Virus record (IMG/VR): IMGVR_UViG_3300033144_000557 | Coordinates: 1 to 25,186 of that record | DNA length: 25,186 nucleotides | Strand: one strand, 5' to 3' | Origin: a virus | Shown here: in pieces, positions 1 through 25,186 of the stretch | Layout: every line of letters starts with the position of its first letter | How positions within the stretch are numbered: position 1 is the stretch's first letter | Position numbers and translations under genes: made by a program | Notes under the pieces: model-generated | Database searches by the model: none | Seen by the model: only the letters and a program-made list of their open reading frames with translations | What the model was told of the DNA's origin: nothing

Positions 1-1572
1 AAAATGTTCACAGATAAAGTTGTACCAATATCCGTTAACTATCCGTTTTTCTTCAAGCCAATCCAAGATGGTATGGACCGTCCAAAAACCGAGTTGGCGT
101 ATAGAGTCCCAGCTTCAAAGCTTACTCGACGTAAACTAGAAACTAACGAGCAACTTAGAGAATTACAAGGTCTTGATACAACTATAGACTGGAAAAACAC
201 GGGGGACAACTCTTACGATGGTGAGAAATTAAAATTATTAGCACACGACGAATCAGGAAAATGGGAACGACCGGACAATATATTAAACAACTGGCGAGTT
301 ACAAAAACTACACTAAGACTAGGCCGAAGAATAGTAGGCAAGTGTATGATGGGCTCAACTTCAAACGCATTAGATAAAGGTGGAAATAACTTCAAAAAAC
401 TTTACTACAGTTCAGATGTTACAAAAAGAAATAGAAATGGACAAACGTCTAGCGGACTCTATTCTTTCTTCATACCTATGGAATGGAATTACGAAGGATT
501 CATGGATACTTTTGGATTACCTGTATTCACTTCAAGCGAAGATAAAAAAATTGGAAGAGATGGTTTACCAATTGAAATTGGAGTTATCGAACACTGGGAA
601 AACGAAGTTGAAGGATTAAAAAATGATAGTGATAGTTTAAATGAATATTATAGACAATTTCCAAGAACTGAAGCTCATGCTTTTAGAGACGAAACTAAAG
701 ACAGTTTATTTAACTTAACTAAAATATATCAACAGATAGATTATAACCACGAAGTAAATAACATAAAGTCTACCACTAGAGGAGCTTTTATGTGGGAAAA
801 TGGAATTAAAGATTCAAGAGTATTATTTATACCTAGCGATAGCGGTAGATTCTTAATATCATGGGTTCCTCCTGTTACATTGCAAAATAATATAATAATA
901 AAAAATGGTATTAAATATCCAGCAAACGATCATATGGGAGCCTTTGGTCTTGATAGTTACGATATTTCTGGTACTGTTGACGGTAAGGGTTCTAACGGAT
1001 CACTTCATGGATTAACTAAGTTTTCAATGGAGGATTGTCCTCCAAATCACTTTTTTTTAGAATACATAGCTAGACCACAAACAGCTGAAATATTTTTTGA
1101 AGAAATACTCATGGCTTTACATTTTTATGGTATGCCTATATTAGCTGAGAATAACAAACCTAGATTTTTATATTATTTAAAAAGAAGAGGTTATAGAGGC
1201 TTTAGTATGAATAGACCTGATAAGATTTGGAATAAGTTATCTACAACGGAGAAAGAAATAGGTGGAATACCTAATTCAAGCGAAGATATAAAACAAGCAC
1301 ATGCTGCAGCTATTGAAAGTTACATAGAAACATATGTTGGTGAAGTAGAAGGATCCATGGGAGATATGTATTTTCAAAAAACATTAGAAGATTGGGCAAC
1401 ATTTAATATAAATAACAGGACAAAGCACGATGCAACTATAAGCTCTGGATTAGCAATAATGGCCTGTAATAAGAATAGATATAAACCAGTCGCTGACAGA
1501 TCTGTTAAAAAGGTTTGTTTAGGTATAAAAAAATATAATAACAAAGGAAGTTTATCACAAATAATAAAATAG
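1..1572 (+). CDS. terL: Terminase large subunit (5' truncated by the window edge)
   Basis: This is the ATP-driven DNA-packaging motor and headful nuclease. The frame is open from base 1; the first ATG, at position 4, is probably an internal methionine, because no Walker A P-loop precedes the Walker B-like LLAHDES. Counting from that Met, the catalytic Asp-Glu are residues 82-83. They are followed by the coupling motif GSTSN, about 35 residues on. The C-terminal half has the RNase H-like nuclease pattern: GLDSYD with D317 and D320, ILAENN with E382, and KHDATISSG with D476. Together the ATPase and nuclease motifs make the call strong. The N-terminal part of the ATPase, including Walker A, should lie just upstream. 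The stop TAG directly abuts the ATG of the portal gene, so the two are probably translationally coupled. This is the only gene here ending in TAG. The first ~350 bases use CGN arginine codons far more than the rest. Confidence 0.9.
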   Translation, partial: KMFTDKVVPISVNYPFFFKPIQDGMDRPKTELAYRVPASKLTRRKLETNEQLRELQGLDTTIDWKNTGDNSYDGEKLKLLAHDESGKWERPDNILNNWRVTKTTLRLGRRIVGKCMMGSTSNALDKGGNNFKKLYYSSDVTKRNRNGQTSSGLYSFFIPMEWNYEGFMDTFGLPVFTSSEDKKIGRDGLPIEIGVIEHWENEVEGLKNDSDSLNEYYRQFPRTEAHAFRDETKDSLFNLTKIYQQIDYNHEVNNIKSTTRGAFMWENGIKDSRVLFIPSDSGRFLISWVPPVTLQNNIIIKNGIKYPANDHMGAFGLDSYDISGTVDGKGSNGSLHGLTKFSMEDCPPNHFFLEYIARPQTAEIFFEEILMALHFYGMPILAENNKPRFLYYLKRRGYRGFSMNRPDKIWNKLSTTEKEIGGIPNSSEDIKQAHAAAIESYIETYVGEVEGSMGDMYFQKTLEDWATFNINNRTKHDATISSGLAIMACNKNRYKPVADRSVKKVCLGIKKYNNKGSLSQIIK

Positions 1573-3771
1573 ATGCAAATAAAAACTTACAATGGTAGTT
1601 CTTTTCCAGATCAGGTGGTACCTGACGAGGTCAAAGCAAGTATTGATTACGGCAAGCAAGTAGGTAGAGCTATTGAAGGAGATTGGTTTAGTGGTACTAG
1701 ATCAACAGTGTCTGGCAGGTACAACACTAACTTCAATAATTTTAGAATGCTAAGGTTGTATGCTAGGGGAGAACAATCTGTACAAAAATATAAAGATGAA
1801 CTTGCAATAAACGGCGATTTAAGTTATTTGAATTTAGATTGGAAACCAGTTCCAATTATACCAAAATTCGTAGATATAGTTGTTAATGGAATGGATAGTA
1901 AGTTATATGATGTAAAAGCTTATGCACAAGATCCTGAATCGTTAAAACAAAGAACAGCATACGCTTCTGCTTTAATGAGAGATATGCAAGCAAAGTCTCT
2001 TATAGAAAAGATAAAAAATGTAACGGGTATGGAGTTGTATAGCACTTCAAATCCAGAAGAGTTACCAGAGAATCAAGAGGAGTTGAATGTTCATATGCAA
2101 TTAACATATAAACAATCTATAGAAATAGCGGAAGAAGAAGCTATAACAAACACATTGGCTTTTAATAAATACGAATTAACAAGAAGAAGAGTTTCTGAAG
2201 ATCTAGTAGTGTTAGGTATTGGTGCTGTAAAAACTAACTTTAACCTATCTCAAGGTGTTACAGTTGACTACGTAGATCCAGCTAATTTAGTTTATTCCTA
2301 CACTAATGATCCTAATTTTCAAGATTTATGGTATGTAGGTGAAGTTAAATATATAAGTTTAAGTGAAGTTAAAAAAGAATTTCCTCACTTAACAGATAGT
2401 GAATTAGAAAGAATACAGCAATTTCCAGGTACTGAAAGTTATAACTATGAGTATAATGGAAGAAGAGACGGTAACAATATAGCTATATTATATTTTGAAT
2501 ATAAAACCTATAGTAATCAAGTTTTTAAAATAAAACAAACGCCTACAGGTTTAGATAAAGCTATTGAAAAGCCAGACACTTTCAACCCACCAAAAAGTGA
2601 TAACTTTGAAAGAGTAAGTAGGTCTATAGAAGTTTTATATAGTGGTGCTAAGATATTAGGTCAAGACATGATGTTAAAGTGGGAGTTGGCTAAAAATATG
2701 ACTAGGCCAAACTCCAACTTAGTTAAAGTTAATATGAATTATAATATATGTGCACCTAAAATGTATAAGGGCCGTATAGAATCTTTAGTTGGTCGTATGA
2801 CTGGTTTTGCTGACATGATTCAATTAACTCATTTAAAGCTACAACAAGTATTAGCTAGAATAGTTCCTGATGGTGTTTTTTTAGATGTTGATGGTTTAGC
2901 TGAGGTTGATTTAGGTAATGGTACAACATACAACCCTCAAGAAGCTTTGAATATGTATTTTCAAACTGGTAGTATAGTTGGTAGGTCAATGACACAAGAC
3001 GGTGGTGCTAACCCTGGTAAAGTTCCAATACAGGAATTACAAACTTCTTCCGGTGGACAAAAAATGCAAAGCTTAATACAGACTTATCAATACTATCTTC
3101 AAATGATGAGAGATGTGACTTGTCTTAACGAAGCTAGAGATGGAGAAGATATGTATAATTTAAACTTATACGAGTTTGGTATATATTTAGAGTTAATGCC
3201 TGATGAAGAGGAAAAAGCTCAATTAGAAAACAGTATACAAGTGTCACTTCAAACACAAAGTATAAATCTAGAAGATGCTATTGAGATAAGGGAAATTAAA
3301 AATTTAAAACTAGCTAATCAAGTTTTAAAAATAAAAAGAAAAAAGAAAGCCGCGGCAGACCAGGCAGCTGCTCAAGAAAACATGAGGGTACAAGCAGACG
3401 CTAACGCTCAAGCTTCTGAAAGAGCTGCTTTAGCTGAAATGCAAAAACAACAAGCTTTAGCCGAAACAACTCTACAAATAGAGCAGGGTAAGTCTCAATT
3501 TGAAATAAATAGAATGCAACAAAAAGCTCAAATAGATATGGAGCTTATGCAGGTTAAGTATGAGTATGATAAACAGCTTAAGCAAATGGATATAGAAAGT
3601 ATAGGCAAAAAAGAAATGCTTATAGAAGATAGAAAAGATAAGAGAACTAGACAAGAAGGAACTCAACAAAGTCAAATGATAAACCAAAGACAACGTCAAG
3701 GATTACCAATAGATTTTGAAGGTGCTGCAGAGCAAGTAAACTTGAAATTAAATGAAATGAACAACGAGTAA
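1573..3771 (+). CDS. Portal protein
   Basis: Predicted portal, the dodecameric ring at one capsid vertex through which terminase pumps DNA and to which the tail attaches. At 732 residues it has the usual size for podovirus portals such as that of P22. The call rests on its place directly after terminase and before the capsid protein, on its length, and on its architecture: a mixed alpha/beta body to about residue 585, then a basic stretch (KIKRKKK, residues 586-592), then a long Ala/Gln/Glu/Lys-rich segment to about 700. That segment is almost certainly helical and probably coiled coil, like the barrel or crown of long portals. The final ~30 residues are Gln/Asn-rich. The ATG follows the terminase stop with no gap and without a Shine-Dalgarno sequence. 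No catalytic motif is expected. A different head-vertex protein is possible but unlikely in this position. Confidence 0.85.
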   Translation: MQIKTYNGSSFPDQVVPDEVKASIDYGKQVGRAIEGDWFSGTRSTVSGRYNTNFNNFRMLRLYARGEQSVQKYKDELAINGDLSYLNLDWKPVPIIPKFVDIVVNGMDSKLYDVKAYAQDPESLKQRTAYASALMRDMQAKSLIEKIKNVTGMELYSTSNPEELPENQEELNVHMQLTYKQSIEIAEEEAITNTLAFNKYELTRRRVSEDLVVLGIGAVKTNFNLSQGVTVDYVDPANLVYSYTNDPNFQDLWYVGEVKYISLSEVKKEFPHLTDSELERIQQFPGTESYNYEYNGRRDGNNIAILYFEYKTYSNQVFKIKQTPTGLDKAIEKPDTFNPPKSDNFERVSRSIEVLYSGAKILGQDMMLKWELAKNMTRPNSNLVKVNMNYNICAPKMYKGRIESLVGRMTGFADMIQLTHLKLQQVLARIVPDGVFLDVDGLAEVDLGNGTTYNPQEALNMYFQTGSIVGRSMTQDGGANPGKVPIQELQTSSGGQKMQSLIQTYQYYLQMMRDVTCLNEARDGEDMYNLNLYEFGIYLELMPDEEEKAQLENSIQVSLQTQSINLEDAIEIREIKNLKLANQVLKIKRKKKAAADQAAAQENMRVQADANAQASERAALAEMQKQQALAETTLQIEQGKSQFEINRMQQKAQIDMELMQVKYEYDKQLKQMDIESIGKKEMLIEDRKDKRTRQEGTQQSQMINQRQRQGLPIDFEGAAEQVNLKLNEMNNE

Positions 3772-4909: not shown

Positions 4910-6373
4910 ATGGGATTAATTGATATGACTCCAGGTATTGCGCCAGCTCAAAAGAGATTGGCACTAAATACTAACTATTTAGATTTTACCGGAGATGAGG
5001 GAGGAAATTTTGCACAGCAATACCTTCCAGAATTATACGAACAAGAAGTAGAGCGTTATGGAAACAGAACGTTATCTGGCTTTTTAAGAATGGTTGGCGC
5101 TGAAATGCCAATGACATCTGATCAAGTTGTTTGGTCTGAGCAAAATAGATTACACGTTGCTTACAAAAATAACGAGATTGCAGAGGGTGCTAATAACGGT
5201 ATACAAGTTACTTTGAATCTTGTAGATGCTCAAACACCTAATGGTGTTATTAGACCAGGTGCTACTATCTTGTTAACTGACACTGCTACTGGACTAACTA
5301 GCTGTAAAGCACTAGTTCAAACTGTTACAGAAAATGCAGCTGGATTAAATAATATACTTGATTGTACTATTTATGAAGGTGATTATGGTGATGTTAGCGA
5401 GCAAATTAAAGAAGGTGCTGATCTATTTGTTTATGGTTCTGAATTTGCTAAAGGTTCAACTGGAATGAATGGTACTATTCAACCACAATTTACTCAGTAT
5501 TCAAATACACCAATAATCATGAAAGATAACTTCGAGATTAATGGTTCTGATACTGCACAAATTGGATGGGTTGAAGTAGCTACTGAAGATGGTACATCAG
5601 GATACTTATGGTATTTAAAGTCTGAGTCTGAAACAAGATTACGTTTCGATGATTACTTAGAAATGTCAATGGTTGAAGGTGTTAAATACACTGGAGCAGA
5701 TGTAGGCTTTTCTTTTGGAAATAGTGGTAATGCATTAGTTAAAGGTACAGAAGGTTTATTCGCTGCTATAGAAGACAGAGGTAATATTTACTCTGGTTTC
5801 TCTGGAGCGCCTCAACCAGGTAACGGTGCTTTAGCTGATTTTGATGAAATACTAAAGCAATTAGACAAGCAAGGTGCTATTGAAGAAAACATGTTATTCT
5901 TATCAAGATCTACTGCTCTTGATTTTGATGATATGATTGCTGCTCAAGCTGGTGGTGGATATAATTCTGCTCAAGCTGTTTCTTATGGTTTATTCGATAA
6001 TGAAGCTGAAATGGCACTTAACTTTGGTTTCTCTGGTTTCAGAAGAGGTTCTTATGACTTCTACAAAACTGACTGGAAATACTTAAACGATGCTACAACT
6101 AGAGGTATGGATCACCAAATTGATGGTGTTTTAGTACCAGCTGGAACTACAACTGTTTATGACCAAATGTTAGGATCTAACATTAGAAGACCTTTCTTAC
6201 ACGTAAGATATAGAGCTTCTGAAACAGAAGATAGAAGATACAAGTCATGGATCACTGGATCTGTGGGAGGTGCTTACACTTCTGATCTTGATGCTATGAG
6301 AGTTAATTTCTTATCTGAAAGATGTTTAGTTACACAAGCTGCTAATAACTTCGTGTTATTCAAAGGAGCTTAA
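4910..6373 (+). CDS. Major capsid protein (HK97-fold, crAss-like type)
   Basis: Predicted shell protein of the icosahedral head. It has 487 residues, close to the size of capsid proteins in crAss-like phages, and sits after the portal and scaffold-position genes. The N-terminal segment has features I associate with that family: EQEVERYGNRTLSGFLRM, then SDQVVWSEQNRLH, at about residues 40-85. The remainder is rich in Gly, Ala, Thr and aromatic residues, as expected of a mixed alpha/beta capsid fold. It has few cysteines. The ATG at 4910 is preceded by an A/T-rich leader (AAAACTTAAAACTAATAATA) with no Shine-Dalgarno. Synonymous codon use is very uniform (Arg mostly AGA, Gly mostly GGT/GGA), as expected for the most highly expressed virion gene. 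The fold call is from motif and context, not a structural comparison. Confidence 0.87.
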   Translation: MGLIDMTPGIAPAQKRLALNTNYLDFTGDEGGNFAQQYLPELYEQEVERYGNRTLSGFLRMVGAEMPMTSDQVVWSEQNRLHVAYKNNEIAEGANNGIQVTLNLVDAQTPNGVIRPGATILLTDTATGLTSCKALVQTVTENAAGLNNILDCTIYEGDYGDVSEQIKEGADLFVYGSEFAKGSTGMNGTIQPQFTQYSNTPIIMKDNFEINGSDTAQIGWVEVATEDGTSGYLWYLKSESETRLRFDDYLEMSMVEGVKYTGADVGFSFGNSGNALVKGTEGLFAAIEDRGNIYSGFSGAPQPGNGALADFDEILKQLDKQGAIEENMLFLSRSTALDFDDMIAAQAGGGYNSAQAVSYGLFDNEAEMALNFGFSGFRRGSYDFYKTDWKYLNDATTRGMDHQIDGVLVPAGTTTVYDQMLGSNIRRPFLHVRYRASETEDRRYKSWITGSVGGAYTSDLDAMRVNFLSERCLVTQAANNFVLFKGA

Positions 6374-12700: not shown

Positions 12701-13952
12701 TGACAATACTAGTTCTCAAAGTATATTTGCAGCTGTAGAAGTTAAGCCAACAGAAACTAGATTAGACATATATTGGGAAACGTCAACTACTGGGTTAATA
12801 TCATCTTTAAACAATGAAATATCTGATGGGCCTAGTGCTACTCCAATACCACCAGATCCAGATCCATTTGAACCGCCTGTTAAAGCAGATGCTATTAGAT
12901 ATACAAATTGTTCTGACAATAGTGACTTTGTATATTCTAGCTTGCCTTTTGATTTTGATGGTGAGAACATAACTGCTTTTATATATAATTGTGAAACTTA
13001 CGATTTAGCAAGTGAGTTTATAGGAGATTTACCAGAAGGACAAGATACTATTACACAAGATGAAGTAACAGGTGTTACTGATTGTAATGTAGTTTGTTTA
13101 AGTGAATATACTAAATGTGCAGACTCTTGCGATCTAAGTGCTCCTAATACTGTTTATTTTGATTCTGACGAACCATATGTTGTTTTTGAATTAACTATAA
13201 CGGGTTCTGAAGTTTGTTATACTAGAGAAGGAAGTTATCAAGGTCAACCTACTCCAAATGTAGAGTTTGTTAGAAGTATAAACGATCCTTGCGATGAAAT
13301 AGAATGCAGAACTTTTATTTATGATTTAGCTAAATGTGTTGAAAGCACAAGTGGTCCAGGAAATTTAAGAATTAGAAAAAGTATAATAGAAGGTCAAGGC
13401 TTTCAAACAGGTGACGTTGTTGTTGTTCAATTTGCAGCTTATAAGACTTGTTATACTATAGAGGGTGAGTCTTGCGATACAGTTCTCAATGGAGGTTTGA
13501 TAGCTATAGAAAACTCAACTGCTACAAACTGTGCGGATGAAAGATGTATACAAGAAGAGCCTGTTAGTTACAGATACTTCTTTAACAACCCTTCTGCTAC
13601 TGATGGTTTAAGTTGTGATTTCTCAACACAAGGAGCTGTAGTTGTTAGGTTTGAAGATACATATTCACCAATGCCAAGTGATGGACCATGTGTGGTAAGA
13701 GTTGACTTCTTACACTTAAATCCTACTCCTCCAGATCAATCATGTTGGATTAGAGATAATGGAAATCCAGGTTTTAACTTGGCAGCATGGGGAGAAACAA
13801 ATGAAGCTACGTGGAACGAAGCGGTTGCAAATAACACAGCTGCAGATGGTTTAGAGGTTTATCCAGCTACTAATGCTAGTGTTAATGAAATATGTCCTTT
13901 ATGTGTGTCTGATGCAACGGACGATGGAATTAATCCAGATCCAGGAGGTTAA
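9747..13952 (+). CDS. Large tail stabilisation / muzzle-like protein
   Basis: This 1401-residue protein opens with SKMNKDLDDRLLQPGEYRDA and SEGDDVGALENVLGN (residues ~10-50), a hallmark of the large stabilisation or 'muzzle' proteins that close the tail tube in crAss-like and related marine phages. Residues ~50-1040 are beta-rich with many Asp, Asn, Thr and Tyr, consistent with a beta-propeller or multi-strand tail protein; they hold only six cysteines. From residue 1055 to 1386 there are 19 cysteines, arranged in three repeats of about 70-75 residues (listed separately). A Pro/Asp linker (PIPPDPDPFEPP, ~1033-1044) precedes that region. The protein ends in NPDPGG. The gene is followed after 13 bases by a 570-residue gene that looks like the remaining part of the same functional protein. 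No signal peptide or membrane segment is seen. Confidence 0.78.
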   Translation: MAQMKNNFVKSKMNKDLDDRLLQPGEYRDARNVNVSRSEGDDVGALENVLGNTFYTNFTNNNPNVEIIGYIKDEETNSIFAFCTDYTDESFNNLNNPAPYNAKCLIVYKPGFGPAKIIVEGRFLNFSKTHKILNSDLLEDLLFWTDDRNQPRKINWKKAAEDPNYYYDEDHISVAKYYPYQPPLLQKETTLDSTEFELWDTDYPGEDVGAGIPSTYYKIIGPNPQETINKLRVGMEVICYTTSAGDNYSFPKFRAFIIERKSTTTGTPNFAYFKINLNQSVAPLSGGNDVTPFESENLSSITFASATSQNQFDEYLTPHQYLKSSDWSGLSVAVTGSAWVVQVGMQITSHEIANPPIITEVAEVRDNTTGYVTGYQITLDKSCQDPSIDNNLTGQYAYLSWYNPNYISSWPGDRLLMEDKFIRFAYRFKFDDGEYSLISPFTQPAFIPKQNGYIVTESTPGVDNNFSDQAISIASSTTISTFENSVNNVDIQIPFEFNCNELKDRLKIEEVDIIYHESDGLAMSIIETIPLTDPGFSQNNTKIFTYDYQSKKPFRTLPEKETIRVFDKVPVRAKTQSVSGNRVIYGNILDKHSPPESLPYNVTISEKYTPGKYSRIGENYPEVRKQSLLPAVAYPYHTVKQNRTYQVGIVLSDRYGRQTDVVLSSLTNFAQSQDNSDEQFDASTVYHPYPDSVEDLLPSDWMGDSIKLLWTDVIPSTLANIEGYPGLYKPKEYVKIGEQNLDNGGAFVPQGDSNADKYNNVTVGDIITAVELEEEEPFIGVVDGVIPSGVDNNYPNGAIFFQPDVEIALDEPVTFHSPGNALGFYTYKVVVKQQAEEYYNVYLGQITNITTDQVVLKNTGGGAALQYRDFYCTSLISDNVNKIPADLIEVTPEQTQFGTSDTLVYPRVGAHVKPGDEIADYSTQFYYGQTPASIAAWGKMKDLGFQEPQDASVEYPKSKGVWSASNNPVMVALGMADRRSIGIHPDNTSSQSIFAAVEVKPTETRLDIYWETSTTGLISSLNNEISDGPSATPIPPDPDPFEPPVKADAIRYTNCSDNSDFVYSSLPFDFDGENITAFIYNCETYDLASEFIGDLPEGQDTITQDEVTGVTDCNVVCLSEYTKCADSCDLSAPNTVYFDSDEPYVVFELTITGSEVCYTREGSYQGQPTPNVEFVRSINDPCDEIECRTFIYDLAKCVESTSGPGNLRIRKSIIEGQGFQTGDVVVVQFAAYKTCYTIEGESCDTVLNGGLIAIENSTATNCADERCIQEEPVSYRYFFNNPSATDGLSCDFSTQGAVVVRFEDTYSPMPSDGPCVVRVDFLHLNPTPPDQSCWIRDNGNPGFNLAAWGETNEATWNEAVANNTAADGLEVYPATNASVNEICPLCVSDATDDGINPDPGG
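12909..13547 (+). repeat. Three tandem cysteine-rich protein modules
   Basis: Within the muzzle-like protein, cysteines recur in register: C1055/C1123/C1197 open each unit after an aromatic residue; C1082, C1157 and C1235 follow (the last two as CYT-x-EG); and C1113-C1117, C1182-C1187 and C1262-C1267 close each unit as a near pair (CDEIEC and CADERC in units two and three). Spacing of equivalent positions is 68-80 residues. DNA identity between units is low, so the repeats are old. Confidence 0.7.
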
Positions 13953-13965
13953 TAAAATATAGATT

Positions 13966-15678
13966 ATGAGTTTAGTTATAGAAGTAGATTTTTTTAATTC
14001 ATATATAGTAAGAAAAGTAAGGTCACAAAGGTCTAACGTTTTCTTTTCACAAAATGGTACGTGGTGGCCTGGAGCTACTAAGCAAGGTGGTTATGGTACT
14101 TACGCTAATCAATCCGCAGATAATTGGTACATAGAAGAAAGCAGGATAAGAGGTGGCTTTAACAACGCTTCAACTAGACAAGGAGTTAGAGCTTATTTAG
14201 ATGATCCAAATCCACTTCAACAAAATAGAAAAGCAACTTTAATATACTCAGGTATATATAACTCTAGAACTGGTATTAATCAAACTAACGTATTTTCTGT
14301 AGGAACAGACATAACTAGATCTATGGATCCTTCACATGGTAGTATACAGTTAACTTATGCTGAGGACACCAACTTGATAGTTTGGCAAGAAAATAGAATA
14401 CATAGGGCTTTAATTGACAAAGACACTATATATACAACAGAAAGTGGTACTCAAACTCAAGCAGGTGCAGCTGTAATAGGTCAGTTAACACCATATAAAG
14501 GAGAGTATGGAATAAGTAAAAATCCAGAATCTTTTGCAATATATAACTATAGGAAATACTTTGCTGATCGTAATAGAAATGCTATAATGAGGTTATCTAA
14601 TGACGGTTTAACTGAGATAAGCATGTATGGTATGATGGATTGGTTTAGAGATAATTTAGCTGAAATGAATTTTGATAGTTCAGTTAACAATTTCAAACCT
14701 TTTATATCTTGCACTGTTTCAGAAGTAGCTGGTGCAAACTCTTTTATATTAAATGTAGAAGGAGATAATATAGATTTGATAACTCCAGGGATGCAAATCA
14801 ATTTTGGCAACGGTGTTTTTACGCCTAACGATTTAACGGTTAGCGTAATATTAGATAATAATGGTTCTAAAAAGCTATTTTTAAGTGGTCCTGTAGTTGA
14901 TCAAAGAGAAGTTGGAGACGTTGTTAACTTTGAAGTAAGCAACAAGTCGCAAATAATTGGTGGTTGGGATATACATAATAAAAACTATGTTGTGTCATTA
15001 CAAAGGACTCCAGGTATGAAAGATTTTAATACTGGTAGTATAGGTCATAAAGATGAAACTTTAGTGTTTGATGAAAAAATAAACGGCTGGGTTTCGTTCA
15101 TGGATTTTATACCTAGCTTTATGTTTAGTATTGTAAATAAATTCTACACTACATTAAAGAATGATGTTTATGAACATTACTATGATGACGTTCCTCAGTT
15201 AACTTTTAGGTCTAGATTCTATGATGTAGATTACGGTTCAGATATAACCTTTGTGTTTAATCAAGGACCTTCCATCATGAAGACTTTTAGCACTATAAGT
15301 TATGAAGGAAGTAGTGGTTGGGAAGTGGAAGCTTTTAAATCTGGTAAAGAAGGTTTTGATTCGGTGGATGGCACTTGGGTTGAGTTTGCTGATGACATAA
15401 AAAGAATAAGAAGTTACGCTGAAGGCTTGTATTTAGATCCAGTTACACAACAACCAACAAGAGCTGGTTTTAATAGAAAAGAAAATAAGTATGTTGCGAA
15501 CTTAGTAGCTAAGTCTACACCTAGACCTGGTGAAGTTAGATTTGGTCCAGACTTAACAGGTATAAAAGGTTATTTTGCAACAGTTAAAATAAAAACCGAT
15601 GAGACAACTGATCCAGGTGGTATTAAAGAATTATGGTCAGCTGGTACAGAGTTTTCTCAAAGCAATGGTTTTCAATAA
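13966..15678 (+). CDS. Second muzzle/stabilisation-type tail protein
   Basis: This 570-residue protein contains EYGISKNPESFAIYNYRKYF followed by ADRNRNAIMRLSNDGLTEIS and YGMMDWFRDNL (residues ~184-230), a block I associate with the distal half of the stabilisation or muzzle protein in crAss-like and marine phages. Flanking sequence is beta-rich with many aromatic residues (FFSQNGTWWPGATKQGG, about residue 27 onward), and the C-terminal ~100 residues carry 'APRPGEV-like' loops (STPRPGEVRFG) and a final strand-rich tail. It has a single cysteine, in sharp contrast to the C terminus of its upstream neighbour. The gap to that neighbour is only 13 bases and both are in the same direction, though in different frames. 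The likely role is closing and stabilising the tail tube together with the 1401-residue protein. Confidence 0.72.
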   Translation: MSLVIEVDFFNSYIVRKVRSQRSNVFFSQNGTWWPGATKQGGYGTYANQSADNWYIEESRIRGGFNNASTRQGVRAYLDDPNPLQQNRKATLIYSGIYNSRTGINQTNVFSVGTDITRSMDPSHGSIQLTYAEDTNLIVWQENRIHRALIDKDTIYTTESGTQTQAGAAVIGQLTPYKGEYGISKNPESFAIYNYRKYFADRNRNAIMRLSNDGLTEISMYGMMDWFRDNLAEMNFDSSVNNFKPFISCTVSEVAGANSFILNVEGDNIDLITPGMQINFGNGVFTPNDLTVSVILDNNGSKKLFLSGPVVDQREVGDVVNFEVSNKSQIIGGWDIHNKNYVVSLQRTPGMKDFNTGSIGHKDETLVFDEKINGWVSFMDFIPSFMFSIVNKFYTTLKNDVYEHYYDDVPQLTFRSRFYDVDYGSDITFVFNQGPSIMKTFSTISYEGSSGWEVEAFKSGKEGFDSVDGTWVEFADDIKRIRSYAEGLYLDPVTQQPTRAGFNRKENKYVANLVAKSTPRPGEVRFGPDLTGIKGYFATVKIKTDETTDPGGIKELWSAGTEFSQSNGFQ

Positions 15679-15695: not shown

Positions 15696-16091
15696 ATGAA
15701 ATTAACAACTAGAGAAGTAATAAAAGAAGATTTTAAAAACATAGATAAATGGTGGTATGAATGGCAGGGGTCTATAGTTCCTCATGATATATTACCTAAG
15801 ACTGGTTTTATGGCAGAGGTTGACGGTGTTCCAGTTTCCGCTATATTTATGTTTAAAACTAATTCTAACAGCGCTGCTATACAGTGGGTTGTTTCAGATA
15901 AAAACTACAGAGAAGAAAATAGAGGAGAAGTATTAACAGAACTAATAAAAGCTTGTGAGGAAGAATGGAAGAAAGATGGTGGACAATTCTTGTTCTTTTG
16001 GGGTAACAACAGTAAGTTTAATAAAAGTTTAGTAGATATGGGCTTTTCTATGGGAGCAACTGATTATACTGAATTAATTAAAAAAATATAA
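15696..16091 (+). CDS. GNAT-like N-acetyltransferase of phage type
   Basis: This 131-residue protein belongs by pattern to the GNAT fold, which transfers an acetyl group from acetyl-CoA to an amine. Visible order: strand and helix TREVIKEDFKNIDKWWYEW, LPKTGFMAEVDGVPVSAIFM (strands 2-3, ~residues 36-55), AAIQWVVSDKNYREENRGEV (strand 4 and the acetyl-CoA loop), a helix, then FLFFWGNNSKFNKSLVDMGF with the typical late GNAT 'N..l...lGF' signature. The pyrophosphate-binding loop is degenerate: REENRGEV rather than the usual R/Q-x-x-G-x-G/A. Short GNATs of this kind are often found beside phage tail genes, with unknown substrates. It starts after an AT-only leader and ends one base before the next ATG, so it is embedded in the virion operon. 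Modification of a virion or host protein is possible; activity is uncertain. Confidence 0.75.
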   Translation: MKLTTREVIKEDFKNIDKWWYEWQGSIVPHDILPKTGFMAEVDGVPVSAIFMFKTNSNSAAIQWVVSDKNYREENRGEVLTELIKACEEEWKKDGGQFLFFWGNNSKFNKSLVDMGFSMGATDYTELIKKI

Positions 16092-16666: not shown

Positions 16667-19015
16667 ATGAGTTACAGTAAGCCACAAACTAATTACGAGC
16701 CTTATAGAGATATCTATAAAGAATCTAGACAGCTTTATAACCAAGCAATGGATGAACAAGCTACTAGAAACGCACAAAACTTAAGTACAGTTGTTAATAC
16801 AACTATGGGTGCCATTAGCGAACAGGTTAAAAAGAAAAAAGGTTTAGAAGCTTTCTCAGCTGAGTCACTAAAAAGATCTAACAAACTAAACGATAAGGTG
16901 GCTAAGTTTGGTAGTCCATATGATGATTTTAATAAGAAGAGTGAGGAGTTTTTCTTTGGTCTAATAGGTGAGTTTAACGATATACAATCTGCCTTAGACA
17001 ATGGTACACATAAAAATCCTCAACTAGCACGACAAGATTTAGCTAGAATAGAAAGATTAGTAGACCAGTATAAAGAAGGTATAGGTGACGTTTTAGCTAC
17101 AGGACAGATTATAGATGATGCTATGGAAATTTACAGAAAAGAGGGAGCTGGTGCTGCTGGTACCCTTAGTGTAACTGGAGCATTAGCACCTCAGCTAAAT
17201 ATTATAGATAAAATGAGAAGAGGTGGTAGTTTAGCAAATGACATAAGTATAAGTCATGATGGTGGTAGCATAATACTTACCGACACGAAAACAGGTGCTA
17301 TACTTAACATGGATGAGTTTAATAAAGCTGTAGTAGATAAAAACAATCCATATATAAAGTTAGTTCCAGATCTTAAAGAGCAATTAAAAGACGGTTACGA
17401 TTTTTTTACAAAAGATAAACAAGGTCAATACCAAGCTAAATACACTACGGTTTCAGATGCTGATCCAAATGATCCTAACGCACAAAGATATATGACTGAA
17501 GTTCAAGAACAAGAACTTATAGAGTCTTTAAAAGGAGGTCCACAGATAGATTATAGAACAGGTAAGCCAACAAAGTTTTTAGACGGTGGTATGTTTAGAG
17601 CTATTATAAGTGAAGAAGGAGAAAGTATATGGGAGGATATGATGCCTACTAGTATAACAAAAGATTTAGAATACCCAGATCCACCACCTGTTTTTGGATC
17701 TCCTGAGTATGAAGAGTATTACAATACTTTTTACGGACCTATGTTATCTTACATGTCTGAGAAAACAGTTACTGAAAACACTCAAGATATAAGAAGAGAA
17801 AGCGTAGAGAACAGAATGAAAGCTGCTCAAGCTAATGAGCCTAAAGTAGACGCTGATGGAAATCCTACAGCTAGAGAATTAAACAAACAATTAGGAAGAG
17901 ATGATTTTGATGCACCTGGCGCGTCTAGATTGAGTCAAAGATTTATTACATCTAATAACGTTAAGGAAGACGAAGAGCTCATTAAAAACGCTAAGGTTGG
18001 ACAAGTGGTTACATTATCAAATGGTAAGAAATACAAGAGAACGCTTGCACAGCCACAAGACCCAGGAATTGTAACTGATAAAGAAAACTTACCAACAGGT
18101 GGTAAACAAAGTAATGCAACAAGTAATACTAACATAGCACCTGGTCAAGCTGTTAATGTACAGCAAACAATACCAGCTAACAACACTGCAGCTCCTGCTA
18201 CAGCTTCAAGTGCTAATAATGGTTATAGTGCTAATGTAACTGTAGACCCTCAAACAAATGCAGTAACTTTTGACTTTAATGGCAAAAAAGTAGATGCTAG
18301 TAAAGCTGTAAGTGGTTATCCGGTTATGAAAATGAAAAACGATGGTGATGATTATATAAGATCAATGGGTAACTTTGAAACATTAATGGGAAGTTCTAGT
18401 GGTGGAGGTGTTACAGGTTATGGTTTTAGTGGTGCTAACCCTGCTTTAGCAAACCTGTTTAAAAATGCTAAAGGAAGTAATAACGAGGAGAAGTTTATAA
18501 ATTCAGTAAATGATTATATAATAGGTCAAGATAACGGCAAGAAAGAGTATGGAGGTAAGCAAACTATATTAACTGACTTAGGTATATCTAGATCAGAGTT
18601 TGACGCTTTACCTGAAGACGTAAGAAAAGAATTAGTTGATTGGAAGTTTAACAGCGGTAGAGGAACAACAGATCTTGTTATAATAGCAAGCGGCGGAGAC
18701 TGGGATGGTGATAGAGCTTTTAGATTTAATTCTCCAACATCTGCAGAACTTGTTGTTAATGATCCGTCTAACCCAGGAAAGAAGAAACCTATTGACTTGA
18801 AAAATCTTGATGTTGCCAAACTTAAAGCAGCTAGACAAGAACTGTATGAAAAGAGAATAGAGGGATTGAAAAATGGTATAGCTTTGTTCAAGAGTAATCC
18901 AAAAGCTAAAGGAGCATTTGATCCGAACGCTAAACCAAAAAACAGCACAAAAACTTATGCTGAAATACTAGAATTCGCCGAAGACGGTTATAATAATTCA
19001 CAAAAATATAGATAA
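16667..19015 (+). CDS. Large virion-associated protein with possible lysozyme-like domain
   Basis: This 782-residue protein is a candidate cargo or ejection protein. Residues 1 to ~340 are helical and charged (QARNAQNLSTV-type Ala/Asn-rich starts, then long helices). Residues ~370-420 are polar. Residues ~485-530 form an Asn/Ala/Thr/Pro-rich linker (VQQTIPANNTAAPATASSAN). After it comes a globular stretch, about 575-700, with TGYGFSGANPAL, an EYGGKQTILTDLGISRSEFD segment and then LPEDVRKELVDWKFNSGRG (648-666). The 'D-x-K-F-N-S-G-R' core resembles the conserved helix of phage muramidase-type peptidoglycan hydrolases, where a similar D..xN.G motif supports the active site, but I cannot point to the catalytic Glu with confidence. 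The C terminus is Lys-rich. The gene starts one base after its neighbour and ends 11 bases before the giant ORF. A role in crossing the cell wall at infection would fit. Confidence 0.55.
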   Translation: MSYSKPQTNYEPYRDIYKESRQLYNQAMDEQATRNAQNLSTVVNTTMGAISEQVKKKKGLEAFSAESLKRSNKLNDKVAKFGSPYDDFNKKSEEFFFGLIGEFNDIQSALDNGTHKNPQLARQDLARIERLVDQYKEGIGDVLATGQIIDDAMEIYRKEGAGAAGTLSVTGALAPQLNIIDKMRRGGSLANDISISHDGGSIILTDTKTGAILNMDEFNKAVVDKNNPYIKLVPDLKEQLKDGYDFFTKDKQGQYQAKYTTVSDADPNDPNAQRYMTEVQEQELIESLKGGPQIDYRTGKPTKFLDGGMFRAIISEEGESIWEDMMPTSITKDLEYPDPPPVFGSPEYEEYYNTFYGPMLSYMSEKTVTENTQDIRRESVENRMKAAQANEPKVDADGNPTARELNKQLGRDDFDAPGASRLSQRFITSNNVKEDEELIKNAKVGQVVTLSNGKKYKRTLAQPQDPGIVTDKENLPTGGKQSNATSNTNIAPGQAVNVQQTIPANNTAAPATASSANNGYSANVTVDPQTNAVTFDFNGKKVDASKAVSGYPVMKMKNDGDDYIRSMGNFETLMGSSSGGGVTGYGFSGANPALANLFKNAKGSNNEEKFINSVNDYIIGQDNGKKEYGGKQTILTDLGISRSEFDALPEDVRKELVDWKFNSGRGTTDLVIIASGGDWDGDRAFRFNSPTSAELVVNDPSNPGKKKPIDLKNLDVAKLKAARQELYEKRIEGLKNGIALFKSNPKAKGAFDPNAKPKNSTKTYAEILEFAEDGYNNSQKYR

Positions 19016-19026
19016 TACAATTCAAT

Positions 19027-22000
19027 ATGAGCGATAACAAGGAATTAGAATTACCAGAAGATTTTGTTTTAATTGAAGAAAACGAAGTAGAGGTTCCAAC
19101 TGACTTTGAAGAAGTTGATGATGAGGAAAAAAAGAAAAAAGCTGCCACAGTAAACTCTGCGAATGTGGTAGCGGTAGAGACCGATCAACCCTCGATAATA
19201 CCAAGTACAGGGAGTATAATATCGGAAAGTGGAGAATCAGAATCAGTAGAAGAAGTAAGTGAACCAGAAGAAGAAAAAGACTCATCTACAGGTACTAGAG
19301 TAGACTTAAAAAAGATAAGTGATAATCAAATAGCTGCTAGAAAAGAGGAGTTACATAAGATAATAAAAAAGAAAACAAATCTAAAAACTTCTGGTAGAGA
19401 TAAGAATATAAACTTAGACAAAGAGTTAAAGATAGATACTGGTGATGATAAGTTAGATTTGTTCATAACAGAATACTTAGAAGATAAAAGAAGAAACAAT
19501 ATGCCTGTAACTAGAGAGCAAGTTGTTAAAGCTGCTTTATCTAAGTCTTTTGATTTTATGAGTGATATAGGTGCTATAAATCCAGAAGCTGTTACTATAA
19601 AGATAGACGAAAATAATAACTATGGTATAGATGAGGATTTAGTAAAACAAAAAAAGTCTATACAAGAAGAACTAGGACCTGATTATGAAAATGCAAAACT
19701 AGTAGGTATAATACCTAGATTTAGCGGAGACATAGAAAGAATAACTACTGATGTTGATGTTATGTCTCAAGACGATGTTACATCTGGTGGTGAAATATTT
19801 GATGCTTCTGGTAGGTTATTGAAAAAACCTGTAGAAGAAAAAGTAGTTCAAGAAGATATAGATTTAGTTAAAGGTAAGAAATTATCTAGTGGAACCAAAC
19901 TTGTGTTTGAGGTAGATGGAAAGTTAAAATATGTTATGGCTCCTTCAAGTATAGATATAGGAGGTAAAAGCTTGAGTGACATTGAAGTGGACGCAAGCGT
20001 AGATATCAAAAGACCATCTGACTATAACTTACAAATGACTAAAAGAATTAACAGCGTACCGTATACATCTAAGTTGTACAACCCTAATATGGACGCACAA
20101 TACTTCGCTGTTAATGATGATGGTACTTTAGAGCTTGATGTTAACTTAAGCTTTGACAAGGCAGCTGAAGAATTTGCAGATGATATATTAAATGGTGAAA
20201 TAACAAGTGAAGATCTTGCGGGTAAAAAAGATAAAAACACAGGAGCTTCAGATCAAAGAACAGGTTTTAATTATGACACTTGGGCTGACTTTGGTTTTTA
20301 CTATAATGAAGAAGATGGTAAAATATATGCTAATGTAGAACTTGACGAAAGAGGCGAACCAGTTAAAACAAGTGAGGGGATTATAAAAGACGCTACCACT
20401 GGTGAACCTGCAAAGTCTATGCTTGCTACTAACCTAGATGCTGACGAAATAGGTGTGGTAACTCCTGAGAATCCACAAGAATGGTATGACAACAATCAAC
20501 GAAATAAAAGAAACTACCAGTCGGTAGATAGATCTAAAAGTAACAAAGATCTTGTAAAATTCCTAATAGAAAACAAACAGCAAGCTAGAAAGTCTTTTAA
20601 TTCTGATATAATAGAAAGAGATGTAAATGCTCAAACCCAAAGAGATTTAGAATTTCAGCAAAAACAATTAGTTATAATTAACCAAGAAGTTAAGATATTA
20701 AAAGATAGTATGGAAGGTCCTGGTAGCAACACAGCTATGTTTAACACCTTCAAAAAGACAAGTGCAGATAACCAAACAAGATTAAATGATCAATTAAATC
20801 CTTTAGCAGCTGACTTAACATCTAAAGCAGCTGAAATAGATAGGTTATACAAAATGCACGAAAATGGGGAGAAAATAAATATAAAAGCATATAATAAACT
20901 TTTCAAAAAGTTTGAAGCTGATAGAGCTAAATACAATAGAATGGTTGAAGTTCTTGACATGCCTATGACAGAGGAGTTTGGTTGGACTAGTAAAGGAGGT
21001 AAAAGACCTTATGAAACTGAAGAGGGTAAAAGAGCTTATGAAGTTATAATACACAAAGATACAGGTTTAGAAATAGTTATAGGGTATAACGATAATATAA
21101 AAGATGTAAATAATAAACTTTACTTTGATAGAAGAGCTGGAAAGGCTATGACAGTTAATGACTATATAAAACAACAAAAAGGTTATGCTGACGAGTTTGC
21201 TGTAAATGCTCTTCAAGATATGAAAAAATTAGAGTATCTTGGCTTTCTTTACCAAGATGCTAGCTTAAGTATAAACAAAAGATACGCAGCAACGTTTGAA
21301 AGAGAAAAGATACTTCACGATATAGCTAAAGAAAAAGCTCTTGATAACGCCACTATTGCAGACTATAGTAAAAGAACGTTAAATCAATTCACTGATAATT
21401 ACTTTAGAGCAATGAGTGGTTTTGTTACTTCTGTTGTTAGAACAATGTCCCAAGGTGGTAATCTAGTTGGTTTATATGACGAAGAAGATATGAAAACCTT
21501 TGATCAAGGTATAAAACAAATGCAGAGAGAGTTTGAAGCTGCATCTTCAGTTTTTGCTGTAGATGAAGATAATGTTTTTAGACAAGCTTTTTCTGAAAGC
21601 TTCGCTGGAAAAGCTCATGCTGCAATGGTTGATATGATCTTTGACGTTTTAGTTACTAGAGGTTTAGGTAAATCTTTTACTTTTGCTAAAAGTGCTAGTA
21701 AAGTTAAAAAAGCAAAATCGTTAATGTCAACAATGATGAGAACACCTACGATAGCTGGTGCCAAATCATTAGCTTCTATGGGAGGTAAAAATATAATAAA
21801 GCAAACTGTTGGGATGATGACAAACCCAATGTTCTTAAAAATAGCAAATGATATGGATAAGCAAATGCAAGATCCTAGATTTGCTAGCATGAGTAGTTCT
21901 CAGAAGTATTTATATACCATGGGAACTTCTTTTGTTATGGGTAAATTAGAACAATTAGGTATTGATTTTGCTACGGAGAAAGTAGGTGGCAAAGTTATAA

Positions 22001-25000
22001 ATCATATATTAGAAAAAGCTTTTGCTACGGGAGGTAAAGATATTGCTAGAAATGTAGATAACATTATAATAGAGTACATGAAAAACGGTGCTTTAAAAAC
22101 TGGAAAGTTTATAGGAACCGGTGGTATTAAAATGACAGGTGAGGGTTTAACTGAAGTTTCTCAAGACGTATTCGATTGGTCCGCTGCTAACATGTTAAAT
22201 TATTTAAAGGGTTATAATGGAGCTGAAGCAGGAAATGCTGCAACAGGTTTTTATAAGCCAGACTTTTTCTCTAAAGAAAACATGGATCAGTTGTTTGAAA
22301 CTTTTGCACTTGGTGCTATAGCTACTGGACCTGTTGCTGTTATAGGTACAACTGTAGAAATGATACAGGATTTTGGTGCAGATAAGTTAGCTAAGTTAGC
22401 AGATAGCCAATGGTCAAGTTTATATATACTTAGAGATAGTGACAACATAAAGACCTATGTAGATCAGATGACTTTAGAAGCTGAAACTGAAATAAGTAAA
22501 GCTAAAAATGTAGAAGAAGCTACAGCTATAAGAGAGAAGTATGATAACAAGATAAAATCAGCTGAAGATTTTCACGACAAGATACAATCTATAAACCCTA
22601 ACTTGAGCTCTGCAGATCAAAGATTAGCTTACTCATTGCTTACAGAGTTGGAAACTATAGAGAAATCTTTAACAAACCCTGATGGAACAAAGAAAAATCC
22701 AGAATTAAATAAAGGTAAATACGATAGAATAAAAACTATAAAAGAAGAATTATCTATATTAGGTGATAAAGCAAATCAAAATGTACAAGACTCTATAGAC
22801 AGAGCTAACGAAACTAATGACGTTAAAACTTCTATAATAGTAACAAGTCCTGATCAAGATACTAATTCTCAAATAACAATTGAAGATGTTTCTCAGAAAG
22901 ATATAGATAAAGCTATTAATAACGTTAATAATGGAGGAGCTGCTATATTACAGAATTCTAACGGAGAGCAGCAAATAATAATATCTAAAGACACTGATGT
23001 AGAAACTTTATTGAATCATGAAAAAAGACATGAATTTTTTAGAGAGGCTTTAGCGAAGAATCCACAAGCTGGTAAAAACATGGTGGATATTATAAGAACT
23101 TATCTATCAAATTCACCTGGCAACCAAAAAATAGCTAAAGAAATAGAAAAGTTTTACGAGCAGTATGAAAATGATCCTGATTATACTCAAGAAGAACTAA
23201 ATGAAGAGTTTATAATGTTGTTTGCTGATAGACTAACTGACAAAAATTTAGTTAATAGAATAAAAGACGATAGATCTTTAGGACAACAACTTAAGTTTGG
23301 TATAAAAGATATATACAGAAGAGCTTTTAATATACCTATAAAAGAACCTAAAAATATAGATGACGTTATAGACTTAATAAAAGAATCTAGATCTGCTTTA
23401 GAAACAGGTAAAAAATCTAAGAGACTACAAAGATTTGCTGATGAAGGTTTCGCAGAAGACAGAGATATAAAAACTACTGGACCTAGAAATAGATCACAAG
23501 TAAAAGAAACTAAAGCGGCTAATACAGAGATAAAACAAATTGGTGAACAAATAAATAGTATTGCTGCTAACGCTAATACAGCTGCTGATGTACAAACATT
23601 ATTATATAATGACCTGTTTGCTGAAGATGCTCCACCTAAAACATCTAACTTAGTAGACAATATTATTAAAGCTCAGTTAAGAAAAAATGGTATCGATGTT
23701 GATAAAGCTGATGCGACAGTTTATGATCAACCTTTGTATGGTCCAGACGGTATAATACAAGAGATTAAATCTCACTTTATTGAAAAAAGTTTAATGAGAT
23801 TTGATCCAAGTAAAAATGACAATGTTGGAGGGTTTGTAGTTTCTGAGTTAGTAAACTATAGAATAGGTGATATAACAAACAAGTACAAACCTAAGCAAGG
23901 CACTATATCTATAGATAAACCTACAAGTACTGGTAAAGCTTTTGACGTCGAAGATGCTAATGCAACTTCTGATATAGAAAGAAGAGCTGAATTTAGAAAA
24001 GAAAAAGTAATTCCAAGGTCTAAGTTAAAAAGTAAAGTACCTGGCTTTGTAGATCAATCATTAGAAGATAATATAGAAACAGCTATACTAGAGATTAGAG
24101 AAGGAGTAAGACCTAAAGCCGATTCAAAAGAATTTTTACCATTTGTTAAGAATGTTATAGAACAAAAGCTAGCCCCTACAGTTAAGAAGCAATTAGGTAC
24201 TTGTAAGAATTATACAGATTTTATGAGAATGAAATTCATACCTAAAATGAGGGAAACTATGACACCTCAGTTTTTCGTTCAACTAGAATCTATGACTAAA
24301 CCTTCTGAAAGATTATTTACTAAACCACCAGTTAGATTAACTAAGCAAGCTGATATAGATAAAGCTATGCTTGATGATAAAGTGTACGTAGAAAATACTA
24401 AGCAAGGTGTTAACTTGTATGAGTTCAAAGATTTTACAGACAAACAACTAGTAGATTATTTACTACCACCATTAAAAATTACAAGTAAAAAAACTGGTAA
24501 AGAAGTTAAAAGTGGTTTAAGAGGTAATAGAAAGACAACTATCGCTACTGGTTCTAGTTTTGAACTAGGTAAGGATATGATACCTAGTATATTTAAAGGT
24601 GATCCAGAATTAGCTTTAATATCTAAAAAGATTCAGAGAGATCCTAGATCTATGATGATGAAGAAGCCTCCGCTTAATTTCACCCCAGATGATATCACTC
24701 AGTTGTTAAAACTTTCTAGAGCTTTTTCTAAAAATGATGTAGCAAGAATACTTGAACTAAGTAAAGATCCTATAAACGAAAAAACTAGAGATGGTATATT
24801 CAAAAGTGTTTTAAATGCTGCTAAAAAAGGTTTCTTAACACAACAAGTTATAGAGGCTGGTAAAATGGGTAGTGGTGGTAGACAGACCTTCTATGGAGAC
24901 GCTAATAGCAAGTATAACAACTACGCTATGGCTAAGAAAAAAGGTATAGAAAAAGTAAAAAAATATTTTAAAACTACTGATGGAGAGTATATTCAAATGG

Positions 25001-25186
25001 CTGATGCTGTTATTAAAGATGGTAGAGTTGTAGAAATAAATAAAGACAAATATAAGAAAAACGTAAATTCTAGGGTAGATTACGTACCTATACCTGGTAG
25101 ATTATTTTGGGGTAATAAAGATCCTCAATACCAAGAGTTAATAAAAGAGGCTAATAAAAATGGTGTTAAGCCTAGTTTATCTAAAA
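19027..25186 (+). CDS. Giant putative virion cargo / polyvalent protein (3' truncated)
   Basis: The frame opened by ATG at 19027 has no stop to the window end: 2053 complete codons, and the gene continues. I do not recognise it as a named protein. In order: an acidic N terminus (~residues 1-95, Glu/Ser-rich); a polar mixed region; a long helical region (~500-760); an Ala/Gly/Met-rich, partly hydrophobic stretch (~830-1125) with GEGLTEVSQD at 1038-1047 and a hydrophobic run TFALGAIATGPVAVIGTTVE starting at ~1092; charged helices (~1130-1270); an HEKRH zinc-peptidase motif at 1331-1335; FDPSKNDNVGGFV at 1592-1604, resembling sigma region 2; then basic sequence. There is no DxDxD RNA-polymerase motif. 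Such multidomain giants next to ejection genes in phages are often packaged and injected, so that is the favoured role. The leader (TACAATTCAAT) has no Shine-Dalgarno. Confidence 0.85.
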   Translation, partial: MSDNKELELPEDFVLIEENEVEVPTDFEEVDDEEKKKKAATVNSANVVAVETDQPSIIPSTGSIISESGESESVEEVSEPEEEKDSSTGTRVDLKKISDNQIAARKEELHKIIKKKTNLKTSGRDKNINLDKELKIDTGDDKLDLFITEYLEDKRRNNMPVTREQVVKAALSKSFDFMSDIGAINPEAVTIKIDENNNYGIDEDLVKQKKSIQEELGPDYENAKLVGIIPRFSGDIERITTDVDVMSQDDVTSGGEIFDASGRLLKKPVEEKVVQEDIDLVKGKKLSSGTKLVFEVDGKLKYVMAPSSIDIGGKSLSDIEVDASVDIKRPSDYNLQMTKRINSVPYTSKLYNPNMDAQYFAVNDDGTLELDVNLSFDKAAEEFADDILNGEITSEDLAGKKDKNTGASDQRTGFNYDTWADFGFYYNEEDGKIYANVELDERGEPVKTSEGIIKDATTGEPAKSMLATNLDADEIGVVTPENPQEWYDNNQRNKRNYQSVDRSKSNKDLVKFLIENKQQARKSFNSDIIERDVNAQTQRDLEFQQKQLVIINQEVKILKDSMEGPGSNTAMFNTFKKTSADNQTRLNDQLNPLAADLTSKAAEIDRLYKMHENGEKINIKAYNKLFKKFEADRAKYNRMVEVLDMPMTEEFGWTSKGGKRPYETEEGKRAYEVIIHKDTGLEIVIGYNDNIKDVNNKLYFDRRAGKAMTVNDYIKQQKGYADEFAVNALQDMKKLEYLGFLYQDASLSINKRYAATFEREKILHDIAKEKALDNATIADYSKRTLNQFTDNYFRAMSGFVTSVVRTMSQGGNLVGLYDEEDMKTFDQGIKQMQREFEAASSVFAVDEDNVFRQAFSESFAGKAHAAMVDMIFDVLVTRGLGKSFTFAKSASKVKKAKSLMSTMMRTPTIAGAKSLASMGGKNIIKQTVGMMTNPMFLKIANDMDKQMQDPRFASMSSSQKYLYTMGTSFVMGKLEQLGIDFATEKVGGKVINHILEKAFATGGKDIARNVDNIIIEYMKNGALKTGKFIGTGGIKMTGEGLTEVSQDVFDWSAANMLNYLKGYNGAEAGNAATGFYKPDFFSKENMDQLFETFALGAIATGPVAVIGTTVEMIQDFGADKLAKLADSQWSSLYILRDSDNIKTYVDQMTLEAETEISKAKNVEEATAIREKYDNKIKSAEDFHDKIQSINPNLSSADQRLAYSLLTELETIEKSLTNPDGTKKNPELNKGKYDRIKTIKEELSILGDKANQNVQDSIDRANETNDVKTSIIVTSPDQDTNSQITIEDVSQKDIDKAINNVNNGGAAILQNSNGEQQIIISKDTDVETLLNHEKRHEFFREALAKNPQAGKNMVDIIRTYLSNSPGNQKIAKEIEKFYEQYENDPDYTQEELNEEFIMLFADRLTDKNLVNRIKDDRSLGQQLKFGIKDIYRRAFNIPIKEPKNIDDVIDLIKESRSALETGKKSKRLQRFADEGFAEDRDIKTTGPRNRSQVKETKAANTEIKQIGEQINSIAANANTAADVQTLLYNDLFAEDAPPKTSNLVDNIIKAQLRKNGIDVDKADATVYDQPLYGPDGIIQEIKSHFIEKSLMRFDPSKNDNVGGFVVSELVNYRIGDITNKYKPKQGTISIDKPTSTGKAFDVEDANATSDIERRAEFRKEKVIPRSKLKSKVPGFVDQSLEDNIETAILEIREGVRPKADSKEFLPFVKNVIEQKLAPTVKKQLGTCKNYTDFMRMKFIPKMRETMTPQFFVQLESMTKPSERLFTKPPVRLTKQADIDKAMLDDKVYVENTKQGVNLYEFKDFTDKQLVDYLLPPLKITSKKTGKEVKSGLRGNRKTTIATGSSFELGKDMIPSIFKGDPELALISKKIQRDPRSMMMKKPPLNFTPDDITQLLKLSRAFSKNDVARILELSKDPINEKTRDGIFKSVLNAAKKGFLTQQVIEAGKMGSGGRQTFYGDANSKYNNYAMAKKKGIEKVKKYFKTTDGEYIQMADAVIKDGRVVEINKDKYKKNVNSRVDYVPIPGRLFWGNKDPQYQELIKEANKNGVKPSLSK
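23017..23208 (+). other. HExxH zincin-like metallopeptidase motif inside the giant ORF
   Basis: NHEKRHEFF places H1331, E1332 and H1335 in the HExxH pattern, where the histidines bind zinc and the glutamate activates water. About 58 residues on, QEELNEEFIMLFADRL offers E1393 or E1394 as third zinc ligand on a predicted helix, the usual gluzincin arrangement. The motif follows a strand-like QQIIISKDTDVETLL, matching the strand-helix order of zincins. HExxH can occur by chance, but these flanks make a real domain likely. Confidence 0.6.
23800..23889 (+). other. Sigma-region-2-like motif inside the giant ORF
   Basis: RFDPSKNDNVGGFVVSELVN (residues 1591-1610) followed by YRIGDITNKYK resembles the 'FDP..G..F..Y....IR..I...' helix of bacterial sigma-70 region 2.1, a motif also met in giant phage proteins. 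Only this short block is recognised; the DNA-melting part of region 2 is not evident, so function as a sigma factor is not claimed. Confidence 0.35.

Follow-up and report, generated by a model that had tools for sequence, protein, structure and literature searches.

Gene content of the window and its phage setting

The window analysed here is the entire IMG/VR record IMGVR_UViG_3300033144_000557, a stretch of 25,186 bases whose left end cuts a terminase gene and whose right end cuts a giant open reading frame (ORF). Translation of the giant ORF from the ATG at 19027 remained open to the contig end (25185/25186), giving 2053 codons with no stop, just as an earlier note on this DNA, which described a single uninterrupted frame of at least 2053 codons reaching the window edge, had read it. 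The principal genes are as follows.

1..1572, + strand: terminase large subunit, 5' end missing (profile match)
1573..3771, + strand: portal protein (profile match; phage portal matches)
4910..6373, + strand: head structural protein (PHROG 13704 match), probably the major capsid protein
16667..19015, + strand: 782-aa gene immediately 5' of the giant; relatives carry a 625-700-aa gene in the same slot
19027..25186, + strand: giant ORF of at least 2053 codons, truncated by the contig end; final gene of the late virion module (ORF call and synteny)

The match to the terminase begins at profile position 231, and between this gene and the giant lie the portal, the head structural protein and other genes for virion proteins, identified by PHROG and profile matches. 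Terminase relatives in GenBank were found in MW202828.1 (66% identity) and Elemovirus (46%), and also in Cellulophaga, Tenacibaculum and Maribacter phages, and the portal matches fell in the same phage groups. By sequence the source is placed as a podovirus (short-tailed phage) akin to Elemovirus, Pachyviridae and Pervagoviridae, and its host is probably a marine member of the Bacteroidota. Relatives of the giant C-terminus in bacterial genome collections came mainly from marine bins, many being Bacteroidota, and probably represent phage contigs that strayed into them.

Gene content and synteny with the flavophages bore out the late-gene location of the giant. The same final slot of the same late module is filled by a 3694-aa gene in elemoE 6-9C (Elemovirus gp18), a 1691-aa gene in phi38:1 (gp101) and a 1935-aa gene in phi18:3 (gp123), and the equivalent position in MW202828.1 is taken by a gene of 3859 aa. 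The products of elemo gp18 and phi38:1 gp101 are annotated as structural proteins, and the phi18:3 record lists gp123 as a structural component of the virion, 'based on experimental MS/MS proteomics analysis'.

Two further observations concern the late module itself. The adjacent ORFs at 9747-13952 (1401 aa) and 13966-15678 (570 aa) match separate parts of PHROG 14478, a virion structural protein, and may thus represent one structural gene of the relatives that is split here. The module also contains an acetyltransferase-like gene, a 131-aa ORF (15696-16091) matching PHROG 17252, whose counterpart by position in MW202828.1 carries the annotation of an acetyltransferase subunit.

Relatives of the giant and the N-terminal virion module

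Used as a direct query, the window giant gave no match in phages, in IMG/VR (single-protein patterns) or in 20 related records, because these giants diverge so rapidly. Relatives were instead reached stepwise, through the terminase, then the C-terminal domain of the giants of neighbouring phages and then an alignment (A2). The search with the C-terminal domain yielded at least 471 confirmed stretches, of which 80 were kept, and the set used below comprises 74 long or full-length giants of related marine viral contigs from among the matches listed. The closest homologues among these matches (L117, L180 and L181) aligned to window residues 1286-1922 with E ~1e-62. Since the best homologues are 2,980 aa long, the complete window protein probably has about 3,000 residues or more.

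The N-terminal module of about 34 giants in the set is also present in elemo gp18, phi38:1 gp101 and phi18:3 gp123 (E 1e-85 or better). The N-terminal part of the window protein joins this module through two weak profile steps only, the first from the window to the L117 family (probability 76%, E 2e-5) and the second from the L117 family to that of the three cultured phages (probability 98%, E 1e-12), which defines one further feature.

22135..22776, + strand: residues 1037-1250, one part of the N-terminal virion module (linked weakly, by profile, to the phi18:3 gp123, phi38:1 gp101 and elemo gp18 family)

As the syntenic last late gene, phi18:3 gp123, combines the MS/MS annotation with the N-terminal module of the giants, carriage of the window giant in the virion is indirectly supported.

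A gluzincin-type domain in the middle of the giant

The earlier note had pointed to H1331-E1332-x-x-H1335 as the core of a zincin-like peptidase, and HEKRH was indeed found at residues 1331-1335. The features of this domain are as follows.

22885..23451, + strand: zincin (gluzincin-type) domain, residues 1287-1475 (profiles, alignments and AlphaFold2 model)
23017..23031, + strand: HEKRH, residues 1331-1335, predicted to supply two zinc-ligand His and the general-base Glu (motif and invariance)
23206..23208, + strand: E1394, predicted third zinc ligand (invariant in 65/65; helix in the model)

Shuffles of the window protein produced HExxH in 0.3% of trials, so rarely because the protein has only 10 His. 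Among the 74 giants the motif occurs in 70, in exactly one copy in 69, while the shuffles gave a mean of 0.37 and a maximum of 2. Two of the four giants lacking HExxH carry HExxxH instead, L127 with HEILGH (residue 1400) and L148 with HEMVGH (residue 1005). With the window and L117 as its sole starting sequences, a profile collected 67 giants, all of them with HExxH. Loss of the motif in close homologues, which the earlier note had named as evidence that would speak against a peptidase, was looked for, and the HExxH residues were retained in every one of them.

Alignment of 65 domains left just four columns without variation, H1331, E1332, H1335 and E1394, the same four as in an independent alignment; an acidic residue (Asp or Glu) occupies position 1401 in 64 of the 65. 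As for the Glu pair at 1393-1394 that the earlier note had seen in a helical 'EEF..LFADRL' context, the sequence EEFIMLFADRL is present from residue 1393, but by alignment only E1394 is predicted as the third ligand, because it is invariant whereas 1393 is Glu in 46/65. Outside the active site the domain diverges rapidly (mean column identity 20%). The window has KR inside its HExxH, where its relatives mostly have a hydrophobic residue followed by Leu or Gly. The zincin profile also matched elemo gp18 (E 1e-12) and the MW202828.1 giant (E 3e-7), matches recovered in profile-profile comparison as well; the latter protein (L002) has two HEFGH motifs, at residues 1615 and 2500. No usable name for the domain was obtained from the Pfam, NCBIfam or PHROG models. 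On this conservation, a zincin-type domain in the giant late protein is judged to be real.

AlphaFold2 run on the 65-domain alignment gave a model with a mean pLDDT of 79.7, in which blocks from about 1342 to 1421 exceeded 90 and the region around HExxH lay in the high 80s. HExxH lies on a model helix spanning 64-83 and E1394 on a helix spanning 127-143, and a third ligand contributed by a Glu of a downstream helix is, in the model, the gluzincin pattern. A Foldseek search of the PDB returned no significant match for this model or for that of the middle region described below. A second structural comparison placed zincin chains of lethal factor at the top of its list with low Z (up to 4.7 for the N-terminal domain and about 3.0 for the catalytic domain) and a putative zinc metallopeptidase in lower rows, all Z being in a range possible for a common arrangement. 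Among the best viral fold matches (lowest E 6e-3) were large phage proteins with MuF-C, PolyVal ART, IrrE-like or large-polyvalent domains in their names.

A tentative sigma-70 region-2-like domain and the C-terminal parts

The zincin is followed by a region that the window shares with a substantial part of the set.

23497..24819, + strand: middle region common to about 32 other giants, residues 1491-1931 (alignments and AlphaFold2 model)
23557..23976, + strand: tentative sigma-70 region-2-like domain, residues 1511-1650, the first part of the middle region (profile and fold resemblance)

Structural comparison of a window-derived AlphaFold2 model of the middle region gave AlgU as its first row (Z 5.2 over 81 residues), with WhiG, SigA and a chain of the AR9 non-virion polymerase also listed for the same stretch. 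The window-derived profile of the region had four matches only in the PDB, one of which was a sigma factor, in register, at E 0.48. Against E. coli sigma region 2 this profile scored 21.4, while the best of 60 column shuffles reached 11.6 and 29 other segments scored 16.0 or less, the top one overlapping the sigma-2-like region itself. Two other segments scored equally high (24.8 and 22.9) against full-length sigma factors, but not against region 2 alone, and the hhalign probabilities of the sigma match were low (3-9%). The domain is under the Pfam cut-off, as is Sigma70_r2 where it appears at the corresponding place in L124 and L149.

A profile seeded from the giants that resemble sigma region 2 reached the window at E 5e-6, and the sigma-2-like profile matched 165-272 residues downstream of HExxH in 48 of 70 giants, the window included (about two thirds). 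When enlarged and compared with the PDB, it placed sigma factors at ranks 1-3 (E 0.008-0.05), a result that is partly circular, the seed giants having been chosen by the E. coli sigma-2 profile. The window-derived data (the model, the region profile and the profile-profile score) were not chosen in this way and indicated the same place, less strongly. Sigma region 4 gave no match in 28 middle regions, where a diverged copy could escape detection. The domain resembles the sigma-70 family in profile and fold, in register with region 2, and differs in lying under the Pfam cut-off, in the failure to find region 4 and in being embedded in a giant chain. The evidence is weak but converging, and we tentatively regard the domain after the zincin as sigma-70 region-2-like. 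As a separate matter, a stand-alone frame of about 250 aa with Sigma70_r2 above the Pfam cut-off was seen in the records of L123, L100, L150, L131, L102, L132 and L122, and by sequence the phages of these seven records probably also encode a separate sigma factor.

HAD motifs occur in order in 69 of the 74 full-length homologues, and the window chain ends before the HAD domain. The C-terminus of the homologues is well kept, with mostly 40-60% identity across about 800-1000 residues, and by comparison with these homologues the complete window giant is expected to include a HAD-phosphatase-like domain and to end in a conserved C-terminus. Assignment of the C-terminal domain as a polynucleotide kinase (PHROG 415) was dropped, as the ordered DFDDT, LTAR and DD motifs correspond to the HAD phosphatase half. 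One chain would hold at least two unlike domains, the zincin in the window and the HAD domain indicated by the motifs of the homologues, with the sigma-2-like domain as a tentative addition. The earlier note made no mention of the sigma-2-like domain, and the HAD domain and C-terminus lie past the contig end.

Comparison with known giant virion proteins

Polyvalent phage proteins with zincin-like MPTase domains were described by Iyer et al. in 2017 (PMC5512222), and the window giant is a polyvalent protein with MPTase of this type. It shares with them a very large size and late-gene origin, HExxH with a Glu on the following helix and unlike domains in one chain, and the HExxxH variants of some relatives have a precedent in the HEXXXH form described there. 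It differs in that its zincin has no Pfam, NCBIfam or PHROG name and in the sigma-like domain, which PMC5512222 does not mention. The invariance, the predicted helices and the late-module setting uphold the earlier note's view of a polyvalent giant containing a zincin. Its reading as a whole, in which the giant would be an injected effector or a self-processing virion polyprotein, is partly supported.

The Schitoviridae virion RNA polymerase (vRNAP), typified by that of phage N4, is similarly a late-gene product of ~3,000-3,500 residues with an HExxH domain in its chain (PMC12633501, PMC5512222); that of N4 is expelled into the cell and starts transcription (PMC12633501, PMC5512222). In contrast, no polymerase domain was found in full-length relatives of the window giant, and the window-type zincin lies mid-chain, ahead of the sigma-2-like and HAD domains. 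An N4-like vRNAP, which would have a T7-like RNA polymerase domain, was accordingly rejected: neither the window part nor any of three full-length relatives gave a match to an RNA polymerase family. The giants of the cultured phages and of MW202828.1 share the final late slot but differ from the window type in that the sigma-2-like and C-terminal domains were not detected in elemo gp18, MW202828.1, phi18:3 or phi38:1, and those of phi18:3 and phi38:1 also lack HExxH.

Proposed function of the giant

We propose that the giant is an internal virion protein of a short-tailed phage, with its parts in the order N-terminal virion/ejection module, gluzincin-type peptidase, sigma-2-like domain, middle domain, HAD-like domain and conserved C-terminus. 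It would be packaged in the virion and taken into the cell together with the DNA. Either in the head or following entry, the zincin would cut its own polypeptide and so free the downstream modules to act in the cytoplasm. We give this reading a probability of about 0.5. The steady position of the single motif, with the N-terminal module before it and the downstream domains after it, and the conserved general base argue for an active peptidase at this point in the chain, and the reading is consistent with the confident model, in which the predicted ligands lie on two helices, and with a late-module slot shared with annotated virion giants, one of them by MS/MS. The simplest reading would be that the giant cuts itself while entering the cell or once inside, and self-cutting was proposed in 2017 for this protein type (PMC5512222). 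Phage P1 DdrB, cut before packaging and with its C-terminal MPTase as the putative autoprotease, is a precedent (PMC5512222). Against it stand the N4 vRNAP, which has a similar HExxH domain and is packaged uncut (PMC5512222), the atypical KR within HExxH and the lack of a significant fold match to a solved peptidase. Nor is the zincin essential to this class of giant, since phi18:3 and phi38:1 have virion giants without the motif.

The zincin could instead act on the host as an injected effector, cutting proteins of, for example, defence or transcription and not the giant itself, the alternative that Iyer et al. proposed for polyvalent MPTases (PMC5512222). The existence of zincin-less phages, as expected if the need is host-dependent, and the fast divergence outside the active site would agree with this; however, a dispensable effector tied to particular hosts would be expected to be less steady than this domain, present at a constant place in 70/74 giants, and we consider this reading unlikely. 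It is somewhat less likely still that the zincin matures head or ejection proteins during virion assembly in the manner of a prohead protease. While the late-module position would suit such a role, and phage P1 DdrB, whose C-terminal MPTase is a proposed autoprotease, is cut before packaging (PMC5512222), HExxH is missing from the giants of the syntenic phi18:3 and phi38:1, whose portal and terminase are related, and a covalent part of an internal protein of ~3,000 residues would be an odd maturation enzyme.

More improbable again is that the HExxH domain is no peptidase but a structural metal site or an oxidative enzyme like the alphaKG-HExxH proteins. Radical SAM (alphaKG-HExxH) enzymes are named beside zincins for the similar C1 domain of N4 vRNAP (PMC12633501), and the zincin fold matches are weak; nevertheless, the HExxH Glu and the downstream helix Glu are both invariant, as in gluzincins, and the polyvalent MPTases have the same layout (PMC5512222). 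A mere structural zinc site would not require E1332, so its invariance favours an active peptidase. A chance match, for which the length of the protein and the unusual KR might be cited, is ruled out by the shuffles and by the four residues conserved in 65/65 domains.

The sigma-2-like domain suggests a virion-delivered sigma-like module, which the zincin might release. It can be envisaged, as an unlikely extension, that in many marine Bacteroidota podoviruses a virion giant with a sigma-region-2-like domain enters with the DNA, is freed or exposed by the zincin and steers host RNA polymerase to early phage promoters, the injected sigma-like factor thus filling the role of the injected N4 polymerase. 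What is new here is mainly this tentative sigma-2-like domain behind the zincin of a polyvalent giant; if real, it would represent a new way for a phage to begin transcription from the virion, and injection of such a self-cutting protein may help the phage to take over transcription. While zincin polyvalent proteins are a known type, the family offers a natural test of what their peptidase cuts: among its related cultured flavophages Elemovirus has the zincin, whereas phi18:3 and phi38:1 lack it. A variant was seen in L095 (873-4565, minus strand), where the HExxH ORF has just 1231 aa and stops shortly after the zincin; the giant of this record may be divided into separate genes.
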